DNA of 20,469 bases from a virus. Below are positions 2,304 through 20,469 of the stretch, piece by piece. A model generated the notes under the pieces. That model was not told the origin of the DNA. It did not search any database and saw only the letters and a program-made list of their open reading frames with translations. Position 1 is the stretch's first letter; every line of letters begins with the position of its first letter. The translations under genes and the position numbers were made by a program. The stretch is from IMG/VR virus record IMGVR_UViG_3300032288_001473, positions 1 to 20,469 of that record, one strand, 5' to 3'.

Positions 2304-2446
2304 TGGCCAGCTGGTTGATAGGTGGCATAGGTTTGGTCTACATGGCGGTGAGCGTGCAGCTGCTGCTCGATGGAAAAATCGGTCTAAGTATCGCATTTTT
2401 GGGATATTCGATCGGCAATGTTGGCCTCTACATGGCAGCGAAATAA
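2303..2446 (+). CDS. Tiny two-segment membrane protein, 47 aa
   Basis: It starts in a TGATG overlap with the previous gene and ends in a TAATG overlap with the terminase large subunit, so translation is probably coupled on both sides. Longer starts upstream (such as 2246) would run through the well-supported gene at 2187. The 47 residues form two hydrophobic stretches (WLIGGIGLVYMAVSVQLLL and IGLSIAFLGYSIGNVGLYM) joined by the short polar turn DGK, a hairpin with two membrane passes. Small proteins of this type are frequent beside phage terminase genes and usually have no known role. A holin-like role is possible (inference). Confidence 0.6.
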   Translation: MASWLIGGIGLVYMAVSVQLLLDGKIGLSIAFLGYSIGNVGLYMAAK

Positions 2447-4002
2447 TGGCTAGAACTAAAGAAAAATCTTCTAAAGAATTGCCGATTACAGGCCTTAATC
2501 TCAACTTTTCAACAAGCCCCGAGGTCTACAAGTTCATCCAAAGTAACAAATTTGTTCAAGGGCTCATGGGGCCGGTGGGATCAGGCAAGAGCTACGCCTG
2601 CGCAGCCAAGATCATGATCAAGGCCGTGCAGCAGAAACCCTCGCCAATCGACGGCATCCGGTATTCGCGCTGGGCAATCGTCCGAAATAGCTATCCGATG
2701 CTGAAGACCACAACGATAAAAACCTGGCTCGACCTGTTTCCCGAGAACACCTTCGGCCCGATGTTGTGGACGCCGCCAATTACGCACCACATACGGCTCC
2801 CATCCAGGGGAGATGCAGCCGGCATCGACTGCGAAGTCATATTTCTGGCGCTCGACCAACCAAAAGACGTCAGAAAGCTGCTCTCTCTCGAGCTCACCGG
2901 CGCCTGGGTAAACGAAGCACGCGAATTACCCAAGGCAGTCATCGATGGTCTCACACACCGTGTTGGCCGATATCCCACAAAGCGCGACGGTGGCGCGTCC
3001 TGGCACGGTATCTGGATGGATACCAACCCGATGGATGATGACCATTGGTGGCACCGCCTGGCCGAGAAAGAAAAGCTCGATGGCCAATACGGGTGGGAGT
3101 TTTTTAAGCAGCCTGGTGGCGTGATCGAGGTCGATCCCGTCGATCTTCCAGAAAACCCAGAGGCAAATGACCACATATTTGCGGCCGGCAAGTGGTGGAA
3201 GATCAACTCTAAGGCCGAGAACCTGGGCAACCTACCGGCCGGTTACTACCCACAGATGTTGTTGGGGAAAAACCTTGATTGGATTCGCTGCTATGCCGAG
3301 GGTAAGTACACCTATGTGCAGGAAGGCAAGCCCGTCTGGCAGGAATACGACGACAACCTGATGACGGGTGATGTTGAATACGACCCATCGGTGCCGCTGC
3401 AAGTGGGCTTAGACTTTGGTTTAACGCCAGCTGCGGTGGTTGGCCAGCGGCTAAGTAACGGCCGCTGGGTAATCCTGCATGAGATCGTAACCTTCGACAT
3501 GGGCCTTGAGCGCTTTGGCCAGCAGCTGCTCGCAGATCTCAATGCTCGCTTTCCAAAAGCGCAGATCATGATCTGGGGTGACCCGGCCGGTATGGCCAGG
3601 GATGCAATCTATGAGGTGACCGCGTTTGATCACCTTCGAACCTTGGGGCTCAGAGCTCAACCAGCTCCAAGCAATGATTTCAAAGTGCGACGTGAAGCAG
3701 CTGCTATGCCTATGCAAAGACTGATCGTGGGAAAGCCTGGCCTCATTGTGAACCGGCAATGCAATCTCCTCCGGAAATCGTTAGCCGGTGGCTATCATTT
3801 TAAGAGGATCGCAATTGGTGCCGGGCAGGAGCGATATCGGGATATGCCCAACAAGAACGAGCACTCGCACGTCGGCGACGCCTTTGGCTATCTGCTGCTT
3901 GGTGGCGGCGAACACAGGCGCATGACGAAGACGCCGCTTGGCGTTGGTGGCCAACCAACCACACCGGTCACCGTGTCGATGGACTTCAATGTCTTTGAGT
4001 AG
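2446..4002 (+). CDS. terL: Terminase large subunit (packaging ATPase/nuclease)
   Basis: The product is 518 aa, a normal length for TerL. The N-terminal ATPase has a Walker A motif G-P-V-G-S-G-K-S at residues 42-49 and a Walker B/catalytic Glu region around 150-159 (L-T-G-A-W-V-N-E-A). The C-terminal RNase H-like nuclease shows three expected acidic metal ligands: D323 in GLDFG, D379 in WGDPAG and D478 in HVGDAFGY. It powers DNA translocation into the procapsid through the portal and cuts the concatemer. The start overlaps the previous stop (TAATG) and lacks a clear ribosome-binding site, which suggests coupled translation. It is the last gene before a palindrome and a promoter-like motif, so it may end a transcription unit. 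Confidence 0.95.
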   Translation: MARTKEKSSKELPITGLNLNFSTSPEVYKFIQSNKFVQGLMGPVGSGKSYACAAKIMIKAVQQKPSPIDGIRYSRWAIVRNSYPMLKTTTIKTWLDLFPENTFGPMLWTPPITHHIRLPSRGDAAGIDCEVIFLALDQPKDVRKLLSLELTGAWVNEARELPKAVIDGLTHRVGRYPTKRDGGASWHGIWMDTNPMDDDHWWHRLAEKEKLDGQYGWEFFKQPGGVIEVDPVDLPENPEANDHIFAAGKWWKINSKAENLGNLPAGYYPQMLLGKNLDWIRCYAEGKYTYVQEGKPVWQEYDDNLMTGDVEYDPSVPLQVGLDFGLTPAAVVGQRLSNGRWVILHEIVTFDMGLERFGQQLLADLNARFPKAQIMIWGDPAGMARDAIYEVTAFDHLRTLGLRAQPAPSNDFKVRREAAAMPMQRLIVGKPGLIVNRQCNLLRKSLAGGYHFKRIAIGAGQERYRDMPNKNEHSHVGDAFGYLLLGGGEHRRMTKTPLGVGGQPTTPVTVSMDFNVFE

Positions 4003-4919: not shown

Positions 4920-6554
4920 ATGTCTGAAATTTACGAGAACGGCAAGAAGTATCAAGGCAATCGCTTAAAGACCGAAGAGATTATCAAGCGTGCGGAAACT
5001 GCGCAGCGCAAGAAAGACCTCTTTGAGGATCTCTATCGCGATGCCTATGAATTTGCCTTGCCGCAACGCCAGCTCTATGGCTATTGGGAAGGCAACTCTG
5101 TCGGCAACAAAAAGATGGCGCGGGTGTTTGATTCAACCGCGATCAACTCGACACAGCGTTTTGCTAATCGCCTGCAATCCGGCATTTTCCCGCCGCAGCG
5201 CAAGTGGGCTCGCCTCGAGCCAGGCACCGACATCCCAGCCGAAAAGAAAGCTCAGGCTCAGGCCATCCTCGATGTTTACGCCGAAAAGATGTTTGCCGTG
5301 CTCAAGCAATCCAACTTTGACATCGCCGTCGGTGAGTTTATTCTGGATCTATCTGTAGGCACGGCTTGCATGATGGTGCAGCCTGGCGACGACGTGCAGC
5401 CGCTCAATTTCATCCCGGTGCCAATGTTCCTGGTCTGCTACGAGGAAGGCGCTAACGGCCAGATCGACAAGGTTTACCGCAAGATGCGCATGAAGGGCGA
5501 GTCGATCACCCAGCAATGGAAGGATGCCGAGCTGCCAATCTCTGTCAAGCAGCGCATCGACACCAAGCCTACCGATGAGGTTGAGCTTCTCGAGGCGACG
5601 GTCTATGACCCAGAGCGCGGCGATTGGTGTTATCACGTCATCGACAAGGCAAGCAAGGAAGAGATTGTCTACCGTCGCATGAATAGCTCGCCCTGGGTGA
5701 TTAGCCGCTACATGAAGGTGGCCGGCGAGATCTATGGACGCGGCCCGTTACTAACCGCCCTGCCCGATATTAAAACCCTCAATAAAACACTTGAGCTCTT
5801 ATTAAAGAATGCTTCACTAGCGATCGCTGGTGTCTACACCGCGGCTGACGACGGTGTGCTTAATCCCAATACCGTCAAGATCGCGCCAGGCGTGATCATT
5901 CCGGTCGCCCGCAATGGTGGGCCTCAAGGTGAATCGCTCAAGCCCTTACCCAGAGCTGGAGACTTCAACGTGTCGCAGATCGTGATCAACGACCTGCGTC
6001 AGAACATCAAGCGCATCCTGCTTGATGAGAGCCTGCCGCCAGACAACATGAGCGCCCGGTCGGCAACCGAAGTGGTCGAGCGCATGAAGGAATTGGCTCA
6101 GAACCTGGGCTCGGCCTTTGGTCGCCTGATCAACGAGACCATGGTGCCGCTGGTTGCACGCATCCTGCAGGTGATGGATGAGCGCGGCCTCATCGACCTG
6201 CCGCTGCAGGTCAACGGCCTTGAAGTTAAGGTCGCACCGGTCGCACCGCTTGCCATGGCGCAGAACATGGAAGAGGTCAACTCGATCATGCAGTTTATGC
6301 AGATCACCGCGTCTATGGGTAATGAGGGTGCGATGGCGGTTAAGACGGGCGAGCTGATCGACTACCTGGGCGACAAGCTCGGTGTGCCAATTTCGGTTCG
6401 CACAACATCTGCCGAGCGTGCATTCCTGATCGAAGAGCAGCGCAAGCTGGCCGCTCAAGACCAAGCAATGATGGCGATGGCCGGCAATCAAGAGGCCGTC
6501 ATGACTAACCAAGCGGCGGCAGTCACACCCGATGCAACCTTTAATCAAACATAA
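4920..6554 (+). CDS. Portal protein (T7-like head-tail connector)
   Basis: The product is 544 aa, close to T7 gp8 (536 aa). The N-terminal region has the conserved look of the podovirus head-tail connector family: DAYEFALPQR at residues 41-50 and VFDSTAINSTQRFANRL at 69-85, followed by an F-P-P-Q-R-K-W segment. The C-terminal third is helical and Gln/Met/Ala-rich (crown region). The portal forms a dodecameric ring at one capsid vertex, acts as the DNA gate, nucleates head assembly with the scaffold and docks the adaptor encoded at 9327. The ribosome-binding site is weak, so translation may be coupled to the gene ending three bases upstream. Its last 23 bases overlap the cupin gene. Confidence 0.92.
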   Translation: MSEIYENGKKYQGNRLKTEEIIKRAETAQRKKDLFEDLYRDAYEFALPQRQLYGYWEGNSVGNKKMARVFDSTAINSTQRFANRLQSGIFPPQRKWARLEPGTDIPAEKKAQAQAILDVYAEKMFAVLKQSNFDIAVGEFILDLSVGTACMMVQPGDDVQPLNFIPVPMFLVCYEEGANGQIDKVYRKMRMKGESITQQWKDAELPISVKQRIDTKPTDEVELLEATVYDPERGDWCYHVIDKASKEEIVYRRMNSSPWVISRYMKVAGEIYGRGPLLTALPDIKTLNKTLELLLKNASLAIAGVYTAADDGVLNPNTVKIAPGVIIPVARNGGPQGESLKPLPRAGDFNVSQIVINDLRQNIKRILLDESLPPDNMSARSATEVVERMKELAQNLGSAFGRLINETMVPLVARILQVMDERGLIDLPLQVNGLEVKVAPVAPLAMAQNMEEVNSIMQFMQITASMGNEGAMAVKTGELIDYLGDKLGVPISVRTTSAERAFLIEEQRKLAAQDQAMMAMAGNQEAVMTNQAAAVTPDATFNQT

Positions 6555-8124: not shown

Positions 8125-8964
8125 ATGGCTATCAATCTATCGACCGCCTTTGTAACCCTGTTCGACGCGGAGGTTAAGCAGGCATATCAGGCATCCGCCG
8201 TTCTCCGTCCTGCCATCCGTGTTCGCTCAGGTGTTGAAGGCTCTACTTACAAGTTCCCCAAGATCGGCAAGGGCGTTGCGCAAATTCGCGTTCCCCAGAC
8301 CGATGTATCCCCACTTAACGTAACCTACGGACAAGTTACCGTTACTTTGGCTGACTACATTGCAGCCGAGTACAGCGATATCTTCATGCAAGCCAAAGTC
8401 AACTTTGACGAGCGCCGTGAGTTGGTACAGGTGGTGTCCAATGCTATTGGCCGTCGTCAAGACCAGCTGATCCTCGACGCGCTTTCTGCTTCGAGCACAT
8501 CGCTTACCGTGGCAAACAGCGTTGGTGGCTCTACAACCAACATGAACGTGGCCAAGCTGCGCGATGCCAAGCAAAAGCTCGACGCTGGTAACGTACCAAT
8601 GGAAGGCCGTCACATCATCATCCACGCATCTAGCTTATCTTCGTTGCTATCAGAAACGGCTGTTACCAGCTCTGACTTCAACACGGTCAAAGCATTGGTG
8701 CAAGGCGACATCAACACGTTCCTCGGCTTCACCTTCCATGTATTGGGTGACCGCAGCGAGGGTGGCCTGCCCAAGGATGCTAGCAACGACCGCACCTGCT
8801 ACGCATTCCACAAGGATGCCGTTGGTATGGCCGAAGGGATTGCTCCGAAGACCGAAGTTAACTACATACCTGAGAAAACGTCATTCCTAGTTGCGTCGAT
8901 GTTCTCGGCCGGCGCCGTTGCAATCGACGACGAGGGTATTGTCAAGATCACCTGCCGCGAATAA
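8125..8964 (+). CDS. Major capsid protein
   Basis: The product is 279 aa, short for an HK97-fold capsid protein but within the range of this podovirus capsid family. The N-terminus (NLSTAFVTLFDAEVKQAYQ) is the typical first helix. It continues with TYKFPKIGKG and V-P-Q-T-D-V (the extended loop region), ADYIAAEYSDIF, ERRELVQVVSNAIGRRQDQLILDAL (the long spine helix) and A-K-L-R-D-A-K-Q-K-L-D-A-G-N-V-P. The C-terminus (PEKTSFLVASMFSAGAVAIDDEGIVKI) is a classical capsid ending. AAAGGA lies 7 bases before the ATG. It sits alone with the next gene between a promoter-like motif and a terminator, as expected for the most abundant virion protein. Tailored expression may be set by the leader. Confidence 0.92.
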   Translation: MAINLSTAFVTLFDAEVKQAYQASAVLRPAIRVRSGVEGSTYKFPKIGKGVAQIRVPQTDVSPLNVTYGQVTVTLADYIAAEYSDIFMQAKVNFDERRELVQVVSNAIGRRQDQLILDALSASSTSLTVANSVGGSTTNMNVAKLRDAKQKLDAGNVPMEGRHIIIHASSLSSLLSETAVTSSDFNTVKALVQGDINTFLGFTFHVLGDRSEGGLPKDASNDRTCYAFHKDAVGMAEGIAPKTEVNYIPEKTSFLVASMFSAGAVAIDDEGIVKITCRE

Positions 8965-9326: not shown

Positions 9327-9941
9327 ATGGCTGCAGGTGATACCGGAATTTCAATCTGTTCTGATGCGCTAATTTTGCTTGGCGCAAAAACCATTTCATC
9401 TTTTAACGATGGCACAGATGAGGCCAACACAGCCGACCGCCTGTACCCAAATGTTAGAGACAGTACGCTAATGCTGTACCCGTGGAGCTTTGCGTACAAA
9501 AAAACCCAGCTTGCACGGTTAATTACTACTCCAACCACAGAGTGGAAATACGAATTTCAATTGCCAGGCGATAGGCTTGGAAATCCAAGGGCGGCGTATA
9601 CAACTAATAGTCCTAGTGCTAGACCACTTAAAGATTGGGAAATTCAAGGCGACAAACTGTTAACCAACGAAACCACAATCTACATTGATTATCCGTATCA
9701 AACGCCTGAGTATTCAATGCCGCAATACTTTGTTCAGCTAATGAAATACATGATGGCTTGGCACATGGCGTATCCCGTGACCGAACAGCAAGACAAGGCT
9801 GTTTATTGGCAGAATGTTGCTATTGGAACGGCAGCGGAAAACGGCCGCGGCGGGTATTTTCGGCAAGCTGTCAACATGGATAGTTACGGACAACCGCCGC
9901 AGCAAATTGATGACTTTTCTCTAGTTGCTGTGAGGTTTTAA
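9327..9941 (+). CDS. Tail tubular protein A / adaptor (T7 gp11-like)
   Basis: The product is 204 aa (T7 gp11 is 196). Signature residues are visible: A-L-I-L-L-G-A-K at about 14-21, S-F-N-D-G-T at 25-30, and L-Y-P-W-S-F-A at 50-56. These belong to the adaptor/tail tubular protein A family, which forms a 12-mer ring joining the portal to the nozzle. The C-terminus ends in F-S-L-V-A-V-R-F. A G-rich ribosome-binding site lies just upstream of the ATG, after the terminator. The gene is clearly more AT-rich than the next one: about 42% GC in 9541-9720 against about 62% in 10021-10080 (hand counts), suggesting exchange of this gene. The stop overlaps the nozzle start (TAATG). Confidence 0.9.
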   Translation: MAAGDTGISICSDALILLGAKTISSFNDGTDEANTADRLYPNVRDSTLMLYPWSFAYKKTQLARLITTPTTEWKYEFQLPGDRLGNPRAAYTTNSPSARPLKDWEIQGDKLLTNETTIYIDYPYQTPEYSMPQYFVQLMKYMMAWHMAYPVTEQQDKAVYWQNVAIGTAAENGRGGYFRQAVNMDSYGQPPQQIDDFSLVAVRF

Positions 9942-11929
9942 TGGCCAGGTTTGTTGACCTGCAGACCAACTTTTCGACGGGTGAGCTCGATCCCTTGTTG
10001 CGATCACGCATTGACCTGCAGCAATACCAGAACGCGCTGTCCAAGGCGACCAACGTGGTGGTTCAGCCACAGGGCGGGATTAAGCGCCGGCCAGGCACAA
10101 AACACATTTTTGAGCTGCCAAATAGCGGATCCGAAAGCGCTGCCAACGGTGTGCGCCTGGTGCCGTTTGAGTTTAGCGTTGACGACAGCTATATGCTGGT
10201 ATTTGTGCATCAACGTATGTATGTGGTCAAGAACGGTGCGCTAGTGACAGCCATCAACGGTGGCGCCAATAACTACCTAACGACAACGGTCACAAGCTCG
10301 ATGTTGAGCGCAATCAACTGGACGCAATCGGCTGACACGCTGATCGTTGTGCATCCTGACCTGCAACCCATCAAGATTGTGCGCGGCGCAACGGATGCCA
10401 GCTGGACGGCAACATCAATCACCTTTGATTCAATTCCACAGTACGCATTCACCATCACAACCAGCAACCCTTCTGCGACGCTAACTCCGTCAGCGGTGTC
10501 TGGCAATATCACGTTGACTGCGTCTTCGTCAGTTTTTTTGAGCACGCACGTCAATCAATACATCAACGTCAGCCCACAGGGCCGGCTGCGCATTATTCGC
10601 TACACCAGCGGCACGTCTGTGGACGCTGTGATCGAGTTTCCGTTATTCAACACTAGCGTGATCGCCAACGGCGCCTGGGAGCTTGAGACCGGGTATGAGG
10701 ATGTGTGGAGCTCGGGCCGGGGCTGGCTACGCACGGTAACATTCCATGAAGGGCGTTTGTATTTTGGTGGCAGCAAGGCCCGGCCATCGACCATCTGGGG
10801 CTCGAAGATCAACATTTTCTATGACTTCAAGCCATCTGAAAATTTGGACGATGACGCGGTTGAAGCAACGCTAGACACCAATCAGCTCAACGTGATTACC
10901 GACATGATCTCTGGCCGTGATCTGCAGGTGTTCACAACCGGTGGTGAATTCTATGTACCGCAAACTGGAACGGATCCAATCACGCCATCTGCGTTCACGT
11001 TTAAGGGTGTCTCTCGCAACGGCATGAAGCCTGGCACCCGCGTCGAATCGCTCGAGAGCGGCACGCTGTTTATTCAGCGCCAGGGCAAGGCACTCAACGA
11101 GTTCCTGTTTTCGGACGCGCAGCTCACCTATATCACGCAGCGGATTTCGCTGCTCTCTGGCCATCTGCTCAAGACACCAACGCGCCTGGCATTGCGTCGG
11201 GCAACGTCGACCGATGAGGGTGATCTGCTTCTTATTATCAACGATTCTGACGGATCAATGGCCGTGTATTCAATTTTGCGTGGCCAGAATGTAATTGCGC
11301 CGTCTGAGTTCACAACCGACGGCAGATTCCTAGATATTGGTGTGGACGTCACGCAGATCTACACCGCGACCAGGCGCACCTTCAACGGTACAAACCGGTA
11401 TTTTGTCGAGCGCTTTGGCGGTGAGTATTTCACAGACTGTGCATTTGTCGGTAGCTCGGCCGGCGGTGTTGGCTCTGGCCTGCCGCACATTGGCAAGAGC
11501 TTGAACGTAATTTGCGACGGTGTGCCGCAAGCTAATGAGACCGTGTCTGCCGGTGGCGCGGTGACATTTGACCGTCAGAGCACAACATCCTATGAGGTGG
11601 GCCTACCGATCAGCGTCTATGTTAAGACCATGCCGGTGGAGATTCAGCTGCAGACCGGAACCCGCGTCGCGTTTAAAAAACGCATCGTGCAGGTCAACGC
11701 GATCGTTGACGACACCCAACACCTGAACATCAACAACCAGCCGGTGCCATTCCAGAATTTTGACAACCCGCTGCTTGATGACCCAATTGCAGAGTTCACC
11801 GGCGTCAAGCGCCTGGATGGCGTGCTTGGGTATTCACGCGACGCGGCAATAGAAGTCACTCAGAACCTGCCTCTCAAGATGACCCTGTTGGGTATTGAGT
11901 ACAAGGTCGCGGTGCATCAAGGGACATAA
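9941..11929 (+). CDS. Tail tubular protein B / nozzle
   Basis: The product is 662 aa, in the size range of podovirus nozzle proteins (T7 gp12 is 794 aa). The N-terminus has N-F-S-T-G-E-L-D-P-L-L at residues 10-20 and P-Q-G-G-I-K-R-R-P-G-T at 43-53, both characteristic of this family. The body is beta-rich, with W-S-S-G-R-G-W-L-R-T-V-T-F-H-E-G-R-L-Y-F-G-G (about 254-275), fitting a beta-propeller and platform build. Nozzle proteins close the tail below the adaptor and carry the fibres. It is translationally coupled to the adaptor. No enzymatic domain is seen. Confidence 0.88.
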   Translation: MARFVDLQTNFSTGELDPLLRSRIDLQQYQNALSKATNVVVQPQGGIKRRPGTKHIFELPNSGSESAANGVRLVPFEFSVDDSYMLVFVHQRMYVVKNGALVTAINGGANNYLTTTVTSSMLSAINWTQSADTLIVVHPDLQPIKIVRGATDASWTATSITFDSIPQYAFTITTSNPSATLTPSAVSGNITLTASSSVFLSTHVNQYINVSPQGRLRIIRYTSGTSVDAVIEFPLFNTSVIANGAWELETGYEDVWSSGRGWLRTVTFHEGRLYFGGSKARPSTIWGSKINIFYDFKPSENLDDDAVEATLDTNQLNVITDMISGRDLQVFTTGGEFYVPQTGTDPITPSAFTFKGVSRNGMKPGTRVESLESGTLFIQRQGKALNEFLFSDAQLTYITQRISLLSGHLLKTPTRLALRRATSTDEGDLLLIINDSDGSMAVYSILRGQNVIAPSEFTTDGRFLDIGVDVTQIYTATRRTFNGTNRYFVERFGGEYFTDCAFVGSSAGGVGSGLPHIGKSLNVICDGVPQANETVSAGGAVTFDRQSTTSYEVGLPISVYVKTMPVEIQLQTGTRVAFKKRIVQVNAIVDDTQHLNINNQPVPFQNFDNPLLDDPIAEFTGVKRLDGVLGYSRDAAIEVTQNLPLKMTLLGIEYKVAVHQGT

Positions 11930-11932
11930 GCC

Positions 11933-12559
11933 ATGACGATCAACGCAACCACTTTCAGCGCCGGCCTTAATGCCACAGCCGGCCTTATGTCGAGCATTGG
12001 CTCGGCCTATGCCGCCCAGGCTCAGGGCTATTTGCAGCAAGCTGGCTATGCCGTCCAGGCTCAGGAAGCCCTGCGCATGGCCGATCTGCGTGCCGATAAG
12101 GCGATTGAATACGCCGAGCTGCAATCAGAGCGGCGCCGGTTCCAAACCGACATCGAGCAGCTCAACTACAAGGTGCAGGCCAACAGTCTGCTCTCAAACC
12201 TGCGCAAGACTAACGCAGCTGCGCGGGCGCGAGCTGCAGCCAATGGCGTCGATATCGGATCTGGATCAGCAATGGGCGTGCAGCAGCAAAACGTGATGGA
12301 CACCTATCGCGATGTGGGGCTCATGGATTTGTCGGCGCTGGTGTCGCGGGTGTTTGGAATGGAAGACGCAACCAACATTTTGAAGGCTGGTTTTGACAAC
12401 GCATTTTATGAGCGCGAATCGGCCATCAGTAACGCCCGCACATTGCAGCAGGCCGGCAGCACATCAGCCAAACAAGGCGGCCTGTTGGCTACAGCCAAGC
12501 TTACCGACGGTGTCATCGGCTTTGCCAAGACTGTGCCAACCAAAGGCTATTTCACTTAG
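11933..12559 (+). CDS. Internal virion protein (T7 gp14-like)
   Basis: The protein has 208 aa (T7 gp14 is 196). It begins with a hydrophobic, Ala/Gly-rich segment (GLNATAGLMSSIGSAYAAQAQ) and continues as long Ala/Gln/Arg helices (RADKAIEYAELQSERRRFQTDIEQL). Residues 97-107 (RARAAANGVDIGSGSA) match the conserved A-x-G-V-x-x-x-G-S pattern of podovirus internal virion protein gp14-type families. These proteins leave the virion at infection and insert into the outer membrane as part of the DNA-ejection channel (known for T7). Position after the nozzle fits. The gene starts 3 bases after the nozzle stop. Confidence 0.78.
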   Translation: MTINATTFSAGLNATAGLMSSIGSAYAAQAQGYLQQAGYAVQAQEALRMADLRADKAIEYAELQSERRRFQTDIEQLNYKVQANSLLSNLRKTNAAARARAAANGVDIGSGSAMGVQQQNVMDTYRDVGLMDLSALVSRVFGMEDATNILKAGFDNAFYERESAISNARTLQQAGSTSAKQGGLLATAKLTDGVIGFAKTVPTKGYFT

Positions 12560-12568
12560 GACTAAAAC

Positions 12569-14287
12569 ATGGCACAGCTTCCGCAAGTTCAATCATTTCG
12601 CGCCCAGGTGCAGCAGGCTCCGTCTGCCGTCACACCTGGTGTGAGCTTTGGCCAGCAACGTCCCGAGATTGCATTAGAGGCGCAGGCTCGCTATCAAGGA
12701 ACGGTTAGCCAGGTGCTAGATCGCATCAGCGAGCGGGTCTTTGGTGTGGCCGCAGATCAGAGCCAGCGTGCCGGGCTGCAATTTGCAGCTGAGAATCCGC
12801 TGACCGACACGCAGCTCAGAGCAATGGCCACGGGTGACAGCAGCGAGCTCGACCTTGGCAGCCCGCTCAACGTGTTTAATAACGCGGTGCGCAAAGCTCG
12901 CGCCGTGGAGGTCTCTGCCCATGCCGAGATCGAGGGCCGCGACAAGATGGTGGAGCTGCTCAAGAAAGCTGAGAGCGGTGAGGTAGATACCCAGCAGGTG
13001 CGCGACCAGATCGTTGCCCTGACCAACGGATACAGCCAATCGCTGGCTCAAATTGATCCAGAGGCGTCATACAAGTATCGCGCCTCGATGGCGACAATGG
13101 GCTCAAAGGTGATCGACAAGATTGCCGAGCTCGAGAGCAAAAAGCGACTGATTGCCAACCGCACCAAGCTTGACCGCGACTACAACAATTTTCTGACGGG
13201 TGTGTCGGCATACGCTAGCTCAGAGATGCAAATTAACCCGGCGACCGGGCAAAAGTTCACGTTAAATGAAGTGACCGACGCAATGAAGCAAAACTTCCTG
13301 AACAACGCCCTGATGTTGGGTGGCGTCCAGGCAGCTGACCTTTATCTTGCCAAAATTGAAAAAGATATTAACGAGGCCAAGATCAACGCGATCACGCAAT
13401 ATGTTGTTACCGACGAGAAATTTTCTGGTGACGCCAGCGCCATCAAGCGCCTGCAGATGGGTGACGCCGGCAATGTGACCGACGCCTATCAGTCGCTGCT
13501 GCCACAAGATCGAGTCAAGGTTATGGCCGCATTCATGACAGCTGATGCAAACAAATACACATTCACAGAGCGAGCTCGCAAAGAGCAGGAAATCAAAGAC
13601 AAGAACACAGCGCTCGATTTATACGAGCAATGGCTGGTGGCCAAAGATGGCGGCACCAAGCGCACCCTGCAGCAGAAGCTTCTCGACCTTAATGTGCTGT
13701 CTTTTGATCAGACTAAAAACCTGCTCGAGGGCGATGGCACAACCAACCCAAATGTGCTGTTCCACATCGAGGACATGATCGACAACGGCCAGATTACGAA
13801 CTCAACAGATCTCATGGCCGAGGCTACCCGCCGCGGTGTGACCGGAACGTCGCTGGTGCAACTGCGCCGTCGTATGAGCGAAAAGGTATCGCCGCAAGTT
13901 AAAGCGATGCAGAAGCGGGTCGCTGGATTGCCTGAAGGTATGGGCGCAATCATTGATCCGAAGAGCGCGGAGTTCCGTGAATACATGAGTATTCAGGAGC
14001 GCCGGGATCAGGCACGGGCTGCTGCCATTGGTGCTGGCAAGCCGTTTGACGAATACGCTTGGACGCTGGAACTGCAGCGTGAGAAGGAAGAAAAGCTCAA
14101 CACTCAAGATGCTAAGAGCGCACGCGATACGTTAAAGAATGTTTACGAGAAACGCGCTGGTGGGCCGATCACATCTAGCACCCTGCCCTATCTCGAGGAG
14201 CAGGTAAAGAAAGGCAAGAGCCAGATCAAGCCGCGTGAATTGGAAGAGATCAAAAAGCTGGTGTTGCGGGCAGAGGGAAAACAATAA
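12569..14287 (+). CDS. Internal virion protein (T7 gp15-like by position)
   Basis: The product is 572 aa (T7 gp15 is 747), almost wholly alpha-helical, with little hydrophobic core and high Gln/Lys/Glu. It starts with VQSFRAQVQQAPSAV and PGVSFGQQRP, an N-terminal pattern common to ejection proteins of this class. No catalytic motif is visible. The gene lies between the gp14-like and the large ejection proteins, so it probably forms part of the periplasmic DNA-ejection tube. Assignment rests on order, length and helical makeup. The ATG at 12569 has a nearby AGGA; the end is directly followed by the next ATG with no gap. Confidence 0.7.
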   Translation: MAQLPQVQSFRAQVQQAPSAVTPGVSFGQQRPEIALEAQARYQGTVSQVLDRISERVFGVAADQSQRAGLQFAAENPLTDTQLRAMATGDSSELDLGSPLNVFNNAVRKARAVEVSAHAEIEGRDKMVELLKKAESGEVDTQQVRDQIVALTNGYSQSLAQIDPEASYKYRASMATMGSKVIDKIAELESKKRLIANRTKLDRDYNNFLTGVSAYASSEMQINPATGQKFTLNEVTDAMKQNFLNNALMLGGVQAADLYLAKIEKDINEAKINAITQYVVTDEKFSGDASAIKRLQMGDAGNVTDAYQSLLPQDRVKVMAAFMTADANKYTFTERARKEQEIKDKNTALDLYEQWLVAKDGGTKRTLQQKLLDLNVLSFDQTKNLLEGDGTTNPNVLFHIEDMIDNGQITNSTDLMAEATRRGVTGTSLVQLRRRMSEKVSPQVKAMQKRVAGLPEGMGAIIDPKSAEFREYMSIQERRDQARAAAIGAGKPFDEYAWTLELQREKEEKLNTQDAKSARDTLKNVYEKRAGGPITSSTLPYLEEQVKKGKSQIKPRELEEIKKLVLRAEGKQ

Positions 14288-16231
14288 ATGGCCTATTCAG
14301 AATTTGAGCAGTCTTTCATGGATAGTGTGTCTGGATCCTATTTTCAGGAACCGCCGCCCGAACCCACTCAAACAGCAGCCGGCCCAACGCAGATTGCAGC
14401 CGAGGCAACAACTTCAGCGGCTGCCTCGGTGCCTGAAATAAAATCCTATGATCCGACCATGCGTGAGCGCATTGCCTCATTTCTGCAGGCCGGGTTTGAG
14501 GGTTTAGGTATGGAGCGCTCAAATGCCCGCAAGAATGCGCAGAGCATCATTGGTGGCCCGTCATCTGGCGGCCCGCTAGGTTTGGGTATAGCAGACATTG
14601 TCCCGTTCCTGGGAACCGCCCTGCAAACGGAAGAGGCTGGCCGCAGCCTGGGTAACGCTGCAACATTGGTTCAGCAAGGCGACATAACTGGCGCCGCGAT
14701 CGAAGGCACCATGGGCGCGGTAGGCATGATTCCCGGAGCAGCTGGCACTATCAAGTATGGCAAGCAGGCGATCAACGCGACCAAGGATCTACCTTCCGGA
14801 CTAAGCATTAAACCAGTTGGTCAAATTCCAACCGGGGCTCCAGCGCCAAATGTGGTGAGCACCAGGCTTCCAACAGCGAAAAAAGCAACAGAAGACCCAA
14901 TTGCCAACAAGTTAGTAATTGATTTGCCAACTATGAAAGCAGATCCAAACGCTTTTACAGAAAACATAAACCTAATTCGCGAGTATCCAAACTTTGTATC
15001 TAACGCTGCCAACACAGACCAGGCCGCAGAAGATTTTATTGGTCAGGTCAAAGACAATTTGCTCTGGCTATATGACCAGGTTCCAGACCAAACTCGAAAC
15101 CGTTCCCGGCTTTGGTATGACGGAGCACGCAATATCGTTGACCAATGGGGTAACGAATTTAGTCAGCCTGACCAGGCAATCTCTGGGGTGCTTGCCGTGC
15201 TATCCCCGCAAAAAGATTGGTTTATGAATGTGTCGCTTGGCAATCGCGTGCTGGACATTGCGCTCAACAAAGGCAGTTCGGGCTGGGACGATGCAATGGA
15301 GCAGACCGCCGGCCGCATTTGGGCAAAGGAAAAATACGCGCCAGTTTTAAATCTGGTTCGGGGAAAATCCTACAATGAGTTGACATCTCCTGCCGAAAAA
15401 GCGTTGTGGTTGCGCACCTATGACGAAACATTTAATGACCGCGCTCATCAGATTGTGACACCAGAAGGAACCTTTGCCGGCGTGCGCTTGAAGATGGATG
15501 GCACGCCGTTTGGCACCGGATGGGGGTCTTTAAATGAAATTGGTAAAGCTGTTGCCATTCTCGAGAACCCATCTTTGGAAAACATCAGCTTAATGCTTGG
15601 CCAACAACATAAGGTGCGCAATTTCTACAACAACATTTATGCGCCAAACGACCAAGCCGGTCATGTAACGATCGACACCCACGCGGTTGCCGCTGGCCTT
15701 TTGCGACCATTATCTGGAAACAGCAGAGAGGTGGCGCACAATTTCGGAAGCAACATAAAAGGCGAACGCGGCCCGGTTAACAGCTCTGTCTCTGGAGCTC
15801 AAGGAACTTATGGGCTATACGCAGAGGCATATCGCCGAGCAGCTGCAGATCGCGGAGTGCTTCCGCGTGAAATGCAATCCATTACCTGGGAAGCTGTTCG
15901 TGGGTTGTTTCCAGACCGCTGGAAAACTGAAAAAAATTCTCAACTAATTGATAACATTTGGGTAGAATATCGAAAGGGAAAGATATCTCTTGAAGAGGCG
16001 AGAAATGAAGTTATCAGAACAGCAGGTGGAATCAACGCCCCAGAATGGGAATCAGCAGGACTTCGTGGTGGAGCTGCTGGCCAAAGCGAAAATGCCGTTG
16101 ACCAGGGACAATTATCTGGGTCTAGCTTATCCGGACGGAGTGCCGAAAGATCTAGACGAAACAAGTCTGCCGCCGGAAATTCGACAAGCGTAATTGGGGG
16201 CCAGGCGGCTCCCGCAATGGGAGCTGAGTAA
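14288..16231 (+). CDS. Ejection-type protein with glycosylase-like central domain
   Basis: The product is 647 aa. Residues 20-50 are Pro/Ala-rich and disordered. Residues 95-160 are Gly/Ala-rich and hydrophobic (GLGIADIVPFLGTAL, GAVGMIPGAAG), suited to membrane contact. Residues about 245-545 form a folded domain of a type seen in phage virion proteins (DUF7178-like): L-S-P-Q-K-D-W-F-M-N-V (305-315), K442 in QHKVRNFYNNI, V-T-I-D-T-H-A (460-466), and M-Q-S-I-T-W-E-A-V-R (529-538). The S-P-Q and I-D-T-H motifs recall HhH-GPD DNA glycosylases, where the Asp is catalytic (inference). DNA for this domain is AT-rich (35-37% GC in sampled parts), unlike its neighbours. The C-terminus is low complexity and overlaps a nested frame. 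The stop overlaps the next start (TAATG). Confidence 0.62.
   Translation: MAYSEFEQSFMDSVSGSYFQEPPPEPTQTAAGPTQIAAEATTSAAASVPEIKSYDPTMRERIASFLQAGFEGLGMERSNARKNAQSIIGGPSSGGPLGLGIADIVPFLGTALQTEEAGRSLGNAATLVQQGDITGAAIEGTMGAVGMIPGAAGTIKYGKQAINATKDLPSGLSIKPVGQIPTGAPAPNVVSTRLPTAKKATEDPIANKLVIDLPTMKADPNAFTENINLIREYPNFVSNAANTDQAAEDFIGQVKDNLLWLYDQVPDQTRNRSRLWYDGARNIVDQWGNEFSQPDQAISGVLAVLSPQKDWFMNVSLGNRVLDIALNKGSSGWDDAMEQTAGRIWAKEKYAPVLNLVRGKSYNELTSPAEKALWLRTYDETFNDRAHQIVTPEGTFAGVRLKMDGTPFGTGWGSLNEIGKAVAILENPSLENISLMLGQQHKVRNFYNNIYAPNDQAGHVTIDTHAVAAGLLRPLSGNSREVAHNFGSNIKGERGPVNSSVSGAQGTYGLYAEAYRRAAADRGVLPREMQSITWEAVRGLFPDRWKTEKNSQLIDNIWVEYRKGKISLEEARNEVIRTAGGINAPEWESAGLRGGAAGQSENAVDQGQLSGSSLSGRSAERSRRNKSAAGNSTSVIGGQAAPAMGAE
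16005..16193 (+). CDS. Nested small gene in +1 frame, 62 aa (putative)
   Basis: This frame lies wholly within the 3' end of the preceding gene. The ATG at 16005 follows a purine-rich GAAGAGGCGAG. The product contains F-V-V-E-L-L-A-K-A-K-M-P-L-T-R-D-N-Y-L-G, then L-A-Y-P-D-G-V-P-K-D-L-D and L-P-P-E-I-R. The P-L-T-R-x-x-Y-L-x-L-A-Y ... L-P-x-E-I pattern recurs in small phage proteins of unknown role (from memory, not searched). The overlapping frame is Ser/Gly/Arg-rich low complexity, as expected if this frame carries the constraint. A TTG at 15990 is an alternative start. Confidence 0.6.
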   Translation: MKLSEQQVESTPQNGNQQDFVVELLAKAKMPLTRDNYLGLAYPDGVPKDLDETSLPPEIRQA

Positions 16232-19203
16232 TGGCCATAAAACCGCTCGAGCAGCGTCTCGAAACAATCCTTCCTGATGTAGCACCGGCACCGGCAGACC
16301 TGCCCGAGCCAATCTTCCCCGAAGACAATTCATCGATTACCGAAGCAGCTGGTGAGCCTGGCGCACCGGCGATGGACGACAACGTACAGCTGGCCGGCCT
16401 AACAGGGGTTGGCGCCAGGTTGCGCGGTGTGATCAAGCAAAAGACTGAAGACGCAGCTGCAGCTCTGAAGGCAAAGCCCGAGGCAACGCAGCGCCCAATT
16501 GTGACCAACGAGGTCGGCCCTGACGGTCTGCCCAAGGTTAAGTCGGTAACCACAACCACGATTACCGATGAAGCCGGCGGCACGGTGGTCGAGAAGAGCA
16601 AGACACGCATCATTCCCGAGGCGCCGCAAGACACGGTCGATAAGGTAGGGGCTGCAATCGAAAACCGTGTGGCAACCGGCAAGCTCGATGGCAAGCCGCC
16701 CGAGGAAGCATTTAATCTGACCAATATGCAAAACGACAACGTCGCTGCAATTATTGGTGGCGTTGGCGATGCGCTAGGTATTCAGACCAAGAAAGTAACT
16801 TTTGAAGAAATCAAGCAAAAAGCAACCGACCTGGGCGTTGATGAGGTGTTCCTCAACCGCCTGTTGGATTCCAACGGAAAGATGCTGCCGTCAGCTGTAG
16901 ACACCTATCGCGCATTCCAGGTGCTCGAATCTTCAGCTGATGAGCTGGGCCGCCTATTTAGCCTGGTCAACTCTGGCCAGGCAAGCGAGGCTCAGATGCT
17001 GCAGCTGCGCCAGCAGATCACGTTCCATGGCCTGGTGCAAAAGGCTGTGAAGGGTGTGCAGACTGAAACCGCCCGAGCATTGGCTGTGATGCGCATTCCG
17101 CGTGAAGGTAGCGTTGATGTAATCCGGCAGACGCTGGATCAGACCGGTGGCGCCGCATCGCTGCAGGATCTGGCGCGTGCCTATATGACGCTAGACAACG
17201 CAGCGGATCGCAACAAGCTGGTGGAAAAATCGATGATGTCCACGGCCAAGGATGTCTGGTTTACAACCTACATCAATGGCCTACTATCGCTGCCAACCAC
17301 GCACGCCAAGAACATCATTGGCAACACGCTCTTTGGTGCGTATCAAATCCCTGAGCGCATGATTGCATCCTTCTATTCAAACGTGCTGCCGGATGGCGTG
17401 CGCAGCTGGCGTGCCTTAGTACCTGGCTCTGCCAAAGAGAAGGTGGAGTTTGATGAGGTACTGACCGAATTGCAATCGCTGCGCCTGAGTGTAAGCGAAG
17501 GCTTAACCCTAGCTCGCCGCAGCTGGTCGCAAAATGCGCCGACCGATCCAATGAGCAAGCTTGAGCTCAAGCGCACAGGTGACCAGCCAGACATCTCTGC
17601 AGCTGCGCTTGGCATGGAGCCCGACACCTGGCTGGCCAAGGGTGTGGATCTGTATGGCAAGGTGATCACCTTGCCTGGCCGGGCGCTGATGACCGAGGAT
17701 GAATTTTTTAAGGGCTGGTTTTACCGCACCGCATTTAATCGCCTCGCGCTGCGCCGCTCAAAGTCTGTCTACCGCGATGCCATCGAGGGTGGAGCCGATG
17801 AGGCCACAGCTGCGGCCAGGGCAGAGACCGAGCTCGATAGTATTTACAAAAACCCGCCGGCAGACCTGGATGAGCAGGCAATGAATTACGCCCGCAAAGG
17901 CACATTCACCATGGATCTGCCGCCAGCTCTCAAGAACCTTGAGGGTAGCTTTCAGCATCCAATCGCCAAAATGATCGTGCCGTTCTTTAGGACGCCTGCA
18001 AACATTGCACTCGAGGTAATTGAGCGCACGCCGTTTGCACCGATCTCTTCTCGGTTCCGTGATGACTTAGCCAAGGGTGGGCCTGACCGTGACCTGGCGC
18101 TTGCCAAGGTAACCATGGGCTCTGCCCTGCTGGCAACTTTCGCCGGCTTCTCTGGCGAGGGTTATCTAACCGGCCGCGGGCCTGCGCGTAAGGCTGACCG
18201 TGAGGCGCTAATGCGCGGTGGCTGGCAGCCCTATTCTCTGGTGCTGCCCAAGGATATGTTTGGCGACCAGATCGAGCGGCTCAATTCTATCGGCCGGGTG
18301 TCGATCTCTGACGACAAGATTTATGTGAGCTTCAACGGCATGGAGCCGATCTCGGCATTCCTGGCCATGGCCGCGGATTATGCCGAATACGCCCGCTATG
18401 AGGACGACGCCGGCAAGACCGAAGAAGTCTTCATGGGTGCGCTCTATGGGATGTATCACTACATGAGCGAGCAGCCCTGGCTCACCGGTATCGCAGATAT
18501 CGCATCGGCTTTGGGTGGCACGCTGCCCAATGCCAACAAGACCGTGGTGGATGTGGTCAACGCGATCGTCAAACAGGGAACGAGCTTTGGCATCGGTGGA
18601 TCCCCTGCCGGCGCCTATAACTCAGCCGTGGCCGGAATCGAGCGATTTATGGCGCCAGAGGCATCAGACACATCGGTCAAGGGTCAAGACCTACCGATGG
18701 GCGTCAAGGGCTTCTATGAGGGTTTAAAGAGGTATATGGCCAGAGTTCCCGGATTGTCTAATTCCCTACCGGAACGATTGAACCTTTGGGGTGACACGAT
18801 CATTCAGGGCCAAGGCAGCGCCCTTGAAATGGTATTACCAACCCGCGTGTCGCCTGGGCAATTTAGCCCTACCGATGACGTCCTTGTTCGCCTAGGCTCT
18901 CCGATCGGGATGCCTGCCCGCAAGGTTGAGGGCGTGGAGCTTAATGCCGACCAATACAACAGGCTGCTCACAATCTATGGCAAGCAGCTGAACGCCAAGC
19001 AGATTCTTTTTGAGGTGGCTACCGCCCCTGGGTTTGGCGAGGCATCGCTAGACGTCCAGCAAACCCTCATCAAAAAGAAGCATGAGGATCTAATGGGCAA
19101 GGCCCGCGAGCTGCTAGTGGCCGAGGATCCAGACATCCGGGCTCGGATGGCCGAGCAAAGAGCCAAGAGAAATGCGTTTGGCCTCTTCTATAAAGACCGA
19201 TGA
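16231..19203 (+). CDS. Large internal virion / DNA-ejection protein (gp16 position)
   Basis: The product is 990 aa (T7 gp16 is 1318). Residues 1-160 are Pro/Ala/Thr-rich and probably disordered. The helical part contains W-F-T-T-Y-I-N-G-L-L-S-L-P-T-T-H-A-K-N-I-I-G-N (about 341-360), typical of large phage virion proteins, and later H-P-I-A-K-M-I-V-P-F-F-R-T-P-A-N-I (about 575-592), also common to them. A hydrophobic segment at about 620-640 (KVTMGSALLATFAGFSG) may cross a membrane. No lytic transglycosylase motif is visible, although T7 gp16 has one at its N-terminus. It probably forms the inner-membrane part of the ejection channel (inference). It is coupled to the previous gene. Confidence 0.75.
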   Translation: MAIKPLEQRLETILPDVAPAPADLPEPIFPEDNSSITEAAGEPGAPAMDDNVQLAGLTGVGARLRGVIKQKTEDAAAALKAKPEATQRPIVTNEVGPDGLPKVKSVTTTTITDEAGGTVVEKSKTRIIPEAPQDTVDKVGAAIENRVATGKLDGKPPEEAFNLTNMQNDNVAAIIGGVGDALGIQTKKVTFEEIKQKATDLGVDEVFLNRLLDSNGKMLPSAVDTYRAFQVLESSADELGRLFSLVNSGQASEAQMLQLRQQITFHGLVQKAVKGVQTETARALAVMRIPREGSVDVIRQTLDQTGGAASLQDLARAYMTLDNAADRNKLVEKSMMSTAKDVWFTTYINGLLSLPTTHAKNIIGNTLFGAYQIPERMIASFYSNVLPDGVRSWRALVPGSAKEKVEFDEVLTELQSLRLSVSEGLTLARRSWSQNAPTDPMSKLELKRTGDQPDISAAALGMEPDTWLAKGVDLYGKVITLPGRALMTEDEFFKGWFYRTAFNRLALRRSKSVYRDAIEGGADEATAAARAETELDSIYKNPPADLDEQAMNYARKGTFTMDLPPALKNLEGSFQHPIAKMIVPFFRTPANIALEVIERTPFAPISSRFRDDLAKGGPDRDLALAKVTMGSALLATFAGFSGEGYLTGRGPARKADREALMRGGWQPYSLVLPKDMFGDQIERLNSIGRVSISDDKIYVSFNGMEPISAFLAMAADYAEYARYEDDAGKTEEVFMGALYGMYHYMSEQPWLTGIADIASALGGTLPNANKTVVDVVNAIVKQGTSFGIGGSPAGAYNSAVAGIERFMAPEASDTSVKGQDLPMGVKGFYEGLKRYMARVPGLSNSLPERLNLWGDTIIQGQGSALEMVLPTRVSPGQFSPTDDVLVRLGSPIGMPARKVEGVELNADQYNRLLTIYGKQLNAKQILFEVATAPGFGEASLDVQQTLIKKKHEDLMGKARELLVAEDPDIRARMAEQRAKRNAFGLFYKDR

Positions 19204-19236
19204 CCCAATAAAATTCCCAATAGGAGCAAATGATAA

Positions 19237-20469
19237 ATGTCCATTCTAATCTCTAATGTATCGCGCCGCGTGGTCTTTGCCGCATCAGGCACAGGCCCGT
19301 ATGCGTTTACTTTTGAGATTCTTGATCAGGACGACGTCGCGGTATATGACGGCAGCACATTGCTGGCCCTTACCACAAACTACACCGTAGCAATAAATGC
19401 AAATGGAACCGGGTCGATAACCCTTGTCAGCGCCCCCTCCGGAGCGACCATAACAATTGTTGGAAACCGAACCGTGGAGCGTATTACAGACTTCACAACT
19501 GGTGGAGATCTGTTTGCCAACGTGCTGAACCAAGAGCTCGATAGCTTAACTATTTTTGACCAGCAAAATGCCGAAGCAATTGAAAGGTCTATTCGAGCTC
19601 CGCAAACAGACCCAACGACCATCGATATGGTTCTGCCGGGTGCGACCACCAGGGCCAACAAGGTGTTGTCATTTGATGCGGACGGAAATCCTGAGACAGT
19701 CAACAGCGTAACAAATATAAATCAGATTTCTCAAATCGTATCTCAAATTATTCAGGTCTCCGGAATTGCGTCGGCAATTGAAGAAATAGATGACATTAAG
19801 CAAGACATTGAGGATCTAAATTCAATTGGAAGTGACATCTCAACTCTTGCTGCAAAGTTTACAGAGATTGGTGTTATTGGCGATGACCTGGCCGGTACTG
19901 GATGGTCTTATGACCTCGGTTCCGTCAATGACGTTGCCAACCCGGCCCCAGGCGCGTCGCCGGACGGATACCTGGTTACTGTATACAACAACTTAGCTGA
20001 CATCATAACGGTCGCTGACGACCTCAATGAGGCAACTTCTGAGATTGACACGGTTGCGGGGAGCATAGCAAACGTCAATGCCGTCGGGACAAACATTGCC
20101 AACGTATCTACCGTTGCCACAAACCTTGGCGGCTCTAACACCATTGGCACGGTGGCAGGATCAATTGCTAATGTGAATGCAGTTGGCGGATCGATTGCCA
20201 ATGTCAACACAGTTGCAACAGATATTGCCGATGTCAACACAGTTGCAGGAGATATTGCAGATGTCACTACAGTCGCAACAGACATTGCCGATGTCAGCGC
20301 CGTTGCTGCAGACATTGCAGATGTCAGCACAGTTGCTGGAATCTCAGGCAATGTCACTACAGTCGCGGGCATATCCGCAAATGTCACCACCGTTGCCGGA
20401 GTGTCAGCAAATGTCACAACAGTCGCTGGCATATCTGGAAATGTCACGACAGTCGCTGGAATTGCAGCA
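19237..20469 (+). CDS. Tail fibre / receptor-binding protein, 3'-partial
   Basis: The frame is open from the ATG at 19237 (AGGAG at 19222-19226) to the right edge, giving 411 residues without a stop. Residues 1-120 match the virion-attachment domain of T7 gp17-type fibres: Y-A-F-T-F-E-I-L-D-Q-D-D-V-A-V-Y (22-37) and a strand followed by R-I-T-D-F-T-T-G-G-D-L-F-A-N-V-L-N-Q-E-L-D (82-102). Residues 160-215 look like a coiled coil. From about residue 276 the protein is built of 10-residue repeats of the form D-I-A-D-V-x-T-V-A-G. The fibre binds the host receptor, and its distal, specificity-setting part lies beyond the window. Confidence 0.88.
   Translation, partial: MSILISNVSRRVVFAASGTGPYAFTFEILDQDDVAVYDGSTLLALTTNYTVAINANGTGSITLVSAPSGATITIVGNRTVERITDFTTGGDLFANVLNQELDSLTIFDQQNAEAIERSIRAPQTDPTTIDMVLPGATTRANKVLSFDADGNPETVNSVTNINQISQIVSQIIQVSGIASAIEEIDDIKQDIEDLNSIGSDISTLAAKFTEIGVIGDDLAGTGWSYDLGSVNDVANPAPGASPDGYLVTVYNNLADIITVADDLNEATSEIDTVAGSIANVNAVGTNIANVSTVATNLGGSNTIGTVAGSIANVNAVGGSIANVNTVATDIADVNTVAGDIADVTTVATDIADVSAVAADIADVSTVAGISGNVTTVAGISANVTTVAGVSANVTTVAGISGNVTTVAGIAA
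20062..20469 (+). repeat. 30-bp tandem repeats in the tail fibre gene
   Basis: About 13 copies of a 30-base unit run to the window edge, each encoding 10 residues, with consensus (D/S/I)-I-(A/S)-(D/N/A)-V-(N/T/S)-T-V-A-(G/T). One copy near 20122 is diverged and three residues longer. Early copies use IANVN, the middle DIADV and the last ones S-A-N-V-T-T-V-A-G, so groups of neighbours are most alike. Such repeats suit a rod-like fibre shaft; repeat number can change by slippage or recombination. Confidence 0.85.

Follow-up and report, generated by a model that had tools for sequence, protein, structure and literature searches.

The closest described systems to the gene examined here are the ejection proteins of T7 (gp14, gp15 and gp16), the polyvalent proteins of phages and conjugative elements, and the Ogg2 and AGOG types of HhH-GPD DNA glycosylase. 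In T7 itself, gp15 and gp16 are not known to be separated by a further gene. In Ogg2, a conserved C-terminal lysine is implicated in the recognition of 8-oxoG. Giant proteins that join disparate domains are a hallmark of the polyvalent class, and the text of the paper describing them makes no mention of a glycosylase (Iyer et al. 2017, PMC5512222). The HhH-GPD protein of Streptomyces phage Sf3 is a conventional PF00730 member that is not linked there to the virion (PMC5336643).

The stretch of DNA analysed here (the window) is an IMG/VR virus record of 20,469 bases whose gene content looks like that of a T7-like podovirus late module. One of its genes encodes a 647-aa protein with a domain that belongs to the Pfam family DUF7178 (PF23802), a phage domain of unknown function. 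We give about even chances to the reading in which this protein is cargo of the ejection cassette: a variable leader joined to a divergent HhH-GPD domain, delivered as a base-excising enzyme. The initial annotation held that a DNA-repair or DNA-modifying enzyme delivered with the genome would be new for this class of protein. That claim has to be narrowed, as a Pfam family already exists and its standalone members in actinophages are in some cases labelled “glycosylase”; what appears to be unreported is the identity of DUF7178 as cargo of ejection-cassette and polyvalent proteins. Literature searches found no prior report of DUF7178, of ejection proteins with a glycosylase, or of a polyvalent protein with one.

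Genomic context

Downstream of the tail tube genes, four large genes lie in a row up to position 19203 (Table 1). These form the ejection cassette, of which the gene at 14288-16231 is the third. The order of tail tubular B, gp14-like, gp15-like, domain and gp16-like genes is kept in 87 close loci, a count that includes contigs retrieved more than once, and in all of these the cargo gene sits between the tail tube and gp16-like genes, the position of an ejection protein.

Slot proteins that are otherwise unrelated share a C-terminal “GAE”, which was considered as a protein signal and rejected. At window positions 16214-16233, the last codons of the cargo gene (Gly-Ala-Glu) double as the Shine-Dalgarno sequence GGAGCTGA of the overlapping downstream gene, and it is the presence of this element that accounts for the conserved C-terminus.

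Table 1. Features of the window, in window coordinates; residue numbers refer to the 647-aa protein.
Feature	Position	Strand	Basis or remark
Terminase	2446-4002		
Portal	4920-6554		
Capsid	8125-8964		
Tail tube proteins	9327-11929		
Tail tubular B-like (nozzle) protein	9941..11929	+	phrog_376 tail protein, E 2.6e-124; Pfam nozzle match weak
T7 gp14-like candidate internal virion protein	11933..12559	+	Weak match to phrog_418, internal virion protein (E 7e-4); position
gp15-like position	12569..14287	+	Position alone; no family match
Cargo-slot gene, 647 aa	14288..16231	+	ORF; Pfam DUF7178, E 3.7e-24; position kept in relatives
N-terminal leader, residues 1-186	14288..14845	+	Poorly conserved; common to slot proteins with other cargo
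Recently exchanged DNA block	14820..16270	+	DNA 95% identical to that of L001; flanks saturated
Expanded DUF7178 domain, residues 187-597	14846..16078	+	Predicted divergent HhH-GPD (Ogg2/AGOG-like) fold; AlphaFold2, hhalign
S-P-Q-K-D-W-F-M-N motif, residues 306-314	15203..15229	+	Corresponds to the S/T-x-Q segment in Ogg2 and EndoIII
Insertion, about residues 329-414	15272..15529	+	Missing from minimal DUF7178 proteins; profile-profile alignment A3 to A7
Predicted helix-hairpin-helix, residues 430-451	15575..15640	+	Helix 430-437, GQQ turn, helix 441-451; DSSP of model
D463, candidate catalytic aspartate	15674..15676	+	Invariant; directly precedes helix 464-471 of model
C-terminal helix motif REMQSITWEAVRG, residues 527-539	15866..15904	+	Aligned with the Ogg2 helix ELDLxLW
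gp16-like internal virion protein	16231..19203	+	phrog_6651 internal virion protein, E 1.9e-22

An expanded form of DUF7178

The domain scores 86.2 bits against DUF7178, well above the curated Pfam cut-off of 27, and scans recovered 535 relatives in viral contigs and 12 in genome contigs. Its border is visible in the conservation profile, which jumps at residue 190 from 0.2-0.5 in the leader to 0.6-1.0 in the domain. The family also exists in a minimal, standalone form of about 200 aa, found in actinophages, cyanophages and roseophages and mostly annotated as hypothetical, with “glycosylase” as the label in several actinophages. Mycobacteriophage DroogsArmy (gp83) and cyanophage S-CBP42 are two phages with a standalone member. 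Many of these standalone copies lie near genome ends, which in such phages commonly hold early genes.

The motifs that the initial annotation had picked out within residues 245-545 are all present: LSPQ at 305-308, KVRNFYNNI at 442-450, and VTIDTHA at 460-466, which includes D463. LSPQK shows 100% conservation at every residue, as do K442 and D463, in a set of 29 non-redundant close homologues, in which the longer S-P-Q-K-D-W-F-M-N motif is likewise invariant. Across 50 diverse homologues (33-76% identity), the invariant residues are S306, P307, K442, D463 and about 36 more, Q308 is kept in at least 90%, and the REMQSITWEAVRG helix retains an invariant R, Q, S, E and R. In the 34 minimal standalone proteins the invariant set is G, WY, L-S-P, W, N, K, F, D, Q and W. 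It includes the equivalents of the S, P, K and D above, the S, P, W and N of the longer motif, and the Q and W of the C-terminal helix. The expectation that D463 and the SPQ motif would be conserved was thus borne out for the aspartate and for S-P, but not for Q, which in the minimal family gives way to R, N, G or T.

Relationship to Ogg2 and AGOG

Both the window domain and a minimal DUF7178 member give confident AlphaFold2 models (pLDDT 94.1 and pTM 0.92 for the former, pLDDT 94.5 for the latter). Foldseek comparison of the minimal member with 350,542 PDB chains places two glycosylases at the top, AGOG (1xqp, probability 0.94) and MjaOgg (3knt, 0.89), although these matches are weak by E-value (0.16 and 0.27) and by TM-score (0.38-0.45). 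Below these two, the next-best probability is 0.21, again for an OGG1; the lower matches include mouse OGG1 and a Deinococcus AlkA. The same search with the expanded window domain gave nothing significant; its best probability, 0.30, belongs to AGOG, the sole HhH-GPD protein matched. In BFVD, the same fold occurs in proteins labelled ART-PolyVal-like or large polyvalent.

Sequence profiles point to the same relatives. The window domain matches the minimal DUF7178 family by hhalign at E 9e-30, and the minimal family matches the Ogg2 profile at E 3.4e-6 (probability 88). The score of this second match is 43.6, against a maximum of 18.5 for 100 column-shuffled profiles, none of which (0/100) came near. 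When its profile was compared with Ogg2 directly, the window domain gave no significant match, also after the insertion had been trimmed from the window profile, and the link of the window domain to Ogg2 is therefore transitive, because only the minimal family matches Ogg2 significantly. The window domain found no match in the PDB by hmmsearch or phmmer, and Pfam HhH-GPD (PF00730) had no match in the window. An hmmsearch of the PDB does yield the Ogg2 chains 3fhf, 3knt, 9o00 and 9o02 at E 0.035-0.13, with TRF2, an implausible match, ranking just above them. The NCBIfam N-glycosylase/DNA lyase family is the one matched by most members of alignment A7, yet this amounts to only 2 of 34. EndoIII and MutY, proposed by the initial annotation as the structures for comparison, were rejected as nearest relatives, as hhalign against their profiles was not significant, direct comparison with the window domain included; the nearest are Ogg2 and AGOG.

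The alignment with Ogg2 preserves the order of hairpin lysine, aspartate and C-terminal helix, and the LTPQS of Ogg2 occupies the same relative place as the LSPQK of the window protein. In the model, the helix-hairpin-helix is followed by a G/P-rich loop, APNDQAG, and then by D463 at the start of a helix, as is characteristic of HhH-GPD proteins. The second helix of the hairpin carries the lysine that marks bifunctional members, K442, which is invariant together with its equivalents and is a candidate catalytic lysine of the predicted hairpin. The agreement is incomplete: the K-to-F spacing is one residue off that of Ogg2, and the C-terminal lysine that is invariant in Ogg2 is absent from DUF7178.

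Together, these models and profiles make a divergent HhH-GPD-type fold very probable in our own estimate, and catalytic activity of the domain fairly probable. The glycosylase assignment of the initial annotation is supported as a likeness in fold, seen in the top PDB matches and the Ogg2 profile match of the minimal form, for which the predicted fold is not unrelated to HhH-GPD; what fell away is the tie to EndoIII and MutY.

Exchange of the cargo domain

The domain had been taken for an insertion on the ground of a GC content of 35-37%. This argument is rejected: residues 245-545 are encoded at 51.3% GC (51% at third positions), the same as the whole gene (51.3%) and close to the window (53.6%). 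Within the gene, GC falls to 32% in the poorest 100-base stretch, and comparable dips occur elsewhere in the window.

Exchange is nevertheless visible by comparison with a related contig, L001. The DNA of the domain is 95% identical between the two, with a dS of 0.17, and the last 50 codons are 100% identical, whereas the surroundings are near saturation (dS 2.4 for the leader, 1.5 for the gp14-like gene and 2.0 for the tail tube gene) and the gp16-like proteins are only 28% identical. The breakpoints are sharp, one near 14,820, at the border of leader and domain, and one near 16,270, just within the next gene. Such a block between saturated flanks indicates that the cargo module is one recently swapped between related phages, so that the claim of an inserted domain survives by way of recombination breakpoints.

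A second block shared with L001 lies past the gp16-like gene, where window positions 19204-20469 and L001 positions 10940-12205 are 99% identical over 1266 bases. No family was matched by the ORFs tested in it.

A variable slot in relatives

Relatives located through the tail tube gene have, in the loci examined (L338-L417), an ORF that separates the gp15-like gene from the gp16-like gene and is 157 to 953 aa long. Its content varies: DUF7178 of the window type in L354, a divergent DUF7178 in L366 (Pfam E 1e-8) and, weakly, in the L377 group, an ART-PolyVal domain alone in L385, and domains without a family match elsewhere. In L347, L357 and L382 the slot holds a bare leader of 157-200 aa. The leader of the window protein is found by blastp in slot proteins with other C-terminal parts (L384, L402, L386, L416 and L405), the match to L384 reaching 44% identity over 175 residues (E 9e-31). 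A DUF7178-like domain was scored in 10 of the 29 loci that extend at least 5.5 kb downstream, a sample skewed to relatives of one gene.

Two further slot proteins drew attention. The one at L414:4869-7037 matches phrog_7348 (E 4e-24), a phage family that bears the label endolysin, and may be another delivered cargo. In those at L384:5766-8012 and L403:13209-15587, a NKV-SF-LLVSGR-DV-V-DR stretch resembles the lysine/aspartate region of Ogg2 by eye; no HMM supports an Ogg2-like reading of this KV-SF...DR pattern, which was set aside.

DUF7178 is also a module of giant proteins in other phages, where it is joined to ART-PolyVal, LPD38, LPD22, InPase, PBECR5, RadC, GGDEF and glucosaminidase domains. 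The window protein has one recognised domain and so falls short of the two or more disparate effector domains that define a polyvalent protein; homologues of it do reach that number. In Rhodobacteraceae phage LS06-2018-MD07 (OP947163.1; L260), the domain is part of a very large ORF, more than 9 kb long and annotated as a methyltransferase only. Roseobacter phage CRP-738, an isolate, has it in a protein of the structural module, gp40.

We give somewhat less than even chances to a broader reading, in which podovirus ejection cassettes have a dedicated cargo slot whose leader delivers interchangeable effectors to the host along with the genome, with a base-excising glycosylase/AP lyase among the commonest, editing or attacking DNA within the first minutes of infection. 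Its occupants would then include several sequence-divergent glycosylase-like lineages and an ADP-ribosyltransferase.

Proposed function

The computations show a resemblance in fold, an invariant K and D, a conserved place in the cassette and modular exchange; packaging, ejection, catalysis, substrate and target of the cargo protein are what we infer. The protein would be packaged with the internal virion proteins and enter the cell alongside the DNA. There, the helix-hairpin-helix would grip DNA, while the SPQ region and the C-terminal helix would frame a base pocket. D463 would activate the glycosidic bond and K442 attack the sugar, as in bifunctional glycosylase/AP-lyases, so that particular bases would be removed and the strand nicked at the very start of infection, which is when an early-expressed or particle-borne enzyme would act. 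The target would most likely be host or defence-related DNA, not generic repair, since in relatives the slot may instead hold an ADP-ribosyltransferase or cargo without a family match, or be empty.

Could the delivered enzyme serve repair after all? With the same fold and the same delivery, an ejected glycosylase might clear the phage genome of oxidised bases as it arrives, ahead of any action by host repair. The nearest folds are 8-oxoguanine glycosylases, and we know of no means by which DNA in a virion could be repaired within the capsid. However, specificity for 8-oxoG is not indicated, because the C-terminal lysine of Ogg2 is missing and the Q of the C-terminal-helix pocket is specific to the family, and the slot of relatives holds an ART or nothing; the repair reading is unlikely. 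It is improbable that the domain is a non-catalytic, HhH-GPD-derived module that holds or guides DNA at ejection. HhH domains do bind DNA non-specifically, and the gene sits among genes for DNA ejection, but every lineage has a catalytic-type K and D and dense polar invariants (R, Q, W, H, N), the standalone proteins from outside ejection cassettes among them, and relatives with a leader only show that the domain is not needed for ejection.

Weak Foldseek E-values, the lack of a Pfam HhH-GPD match in the window and the non-significant EndoIII/MutY comparisons would suit an unrelated all-alpha enzyme with HhH-GPD-like motifs arisen by chance. This we consider quite improbable, since profile comparison and fold search, which are independent, meet on the same small subfamily, and the order of the motifs, the spacing of K and D and the layout of the helices fit HhH-GPD.

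A delivered base-excising enzyme, the preferred reading, assigns DUF7178 a testable function, ties the family to Ogg2/AGOG and puts it among virion-associated proteins. If the domain is active, phages would have base excision as a further chemistry to bring in with their DNA, next to ADP-ribosylation, nucleases and peptidases, and as a counterpart to bacterial glycosylase defences. The phage may thus bring a DNA-editing tool with its genome, and a simple way to look for more delivered effectors is to read whichever gene stands after the gp15-like and before the gp16-like one.

Comparison with known systems

The standalone DUF7178 proteins (PF23802; phrog_3842) share a homologous core with the window form, with WY, S-P-W-N, K, D, Q and W as common invariants. 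The window form differs in its insertion of about 85 residues, its long N- and C-terminal parts, its fusion to a leader and its location in an ejection cassette, whereas standalone members often lie near genome ends. Likeness to Ogg2 (NF002305; MjaOgg 3knt, 3fhf), seen by profile and fold for the minimal family, extends to the [ST]-P-Q segment, the helix-hairpin-helix lysine, the IDxH aspartate and a C-terminal helix ending in W. Unlike Ogg2, DUF7178 has no C-terminal lysine, carries Q where the last helix of Ogg2 has D, has an additional WY-containing N-terminal helix motif and stays under every curated cut-off. Pa-AGOG (1xqp) is the best fold match of the minimal form despite its low TM-score, and has no sequence-level match to DUF7178.

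Polyvalent proteins share DUF7178 with the window protein, and the slot also accommodates ART-PolyVal on its own; the window protein is small by comparison and has a single recognised domain. The order of the cassette genes and their place after the tail tube genes are those of T7 gp14, gp15 and gp16, and the gp16-like product has its own match among internal virion proteins. The Brig1-type DNA glycosylase defence (PMC11078745) is similar by role, as an instance of base excision in the conflict between phage and host. In that case it is the host that attacks phage DNA, whereas here the phage would carry the enzyme.
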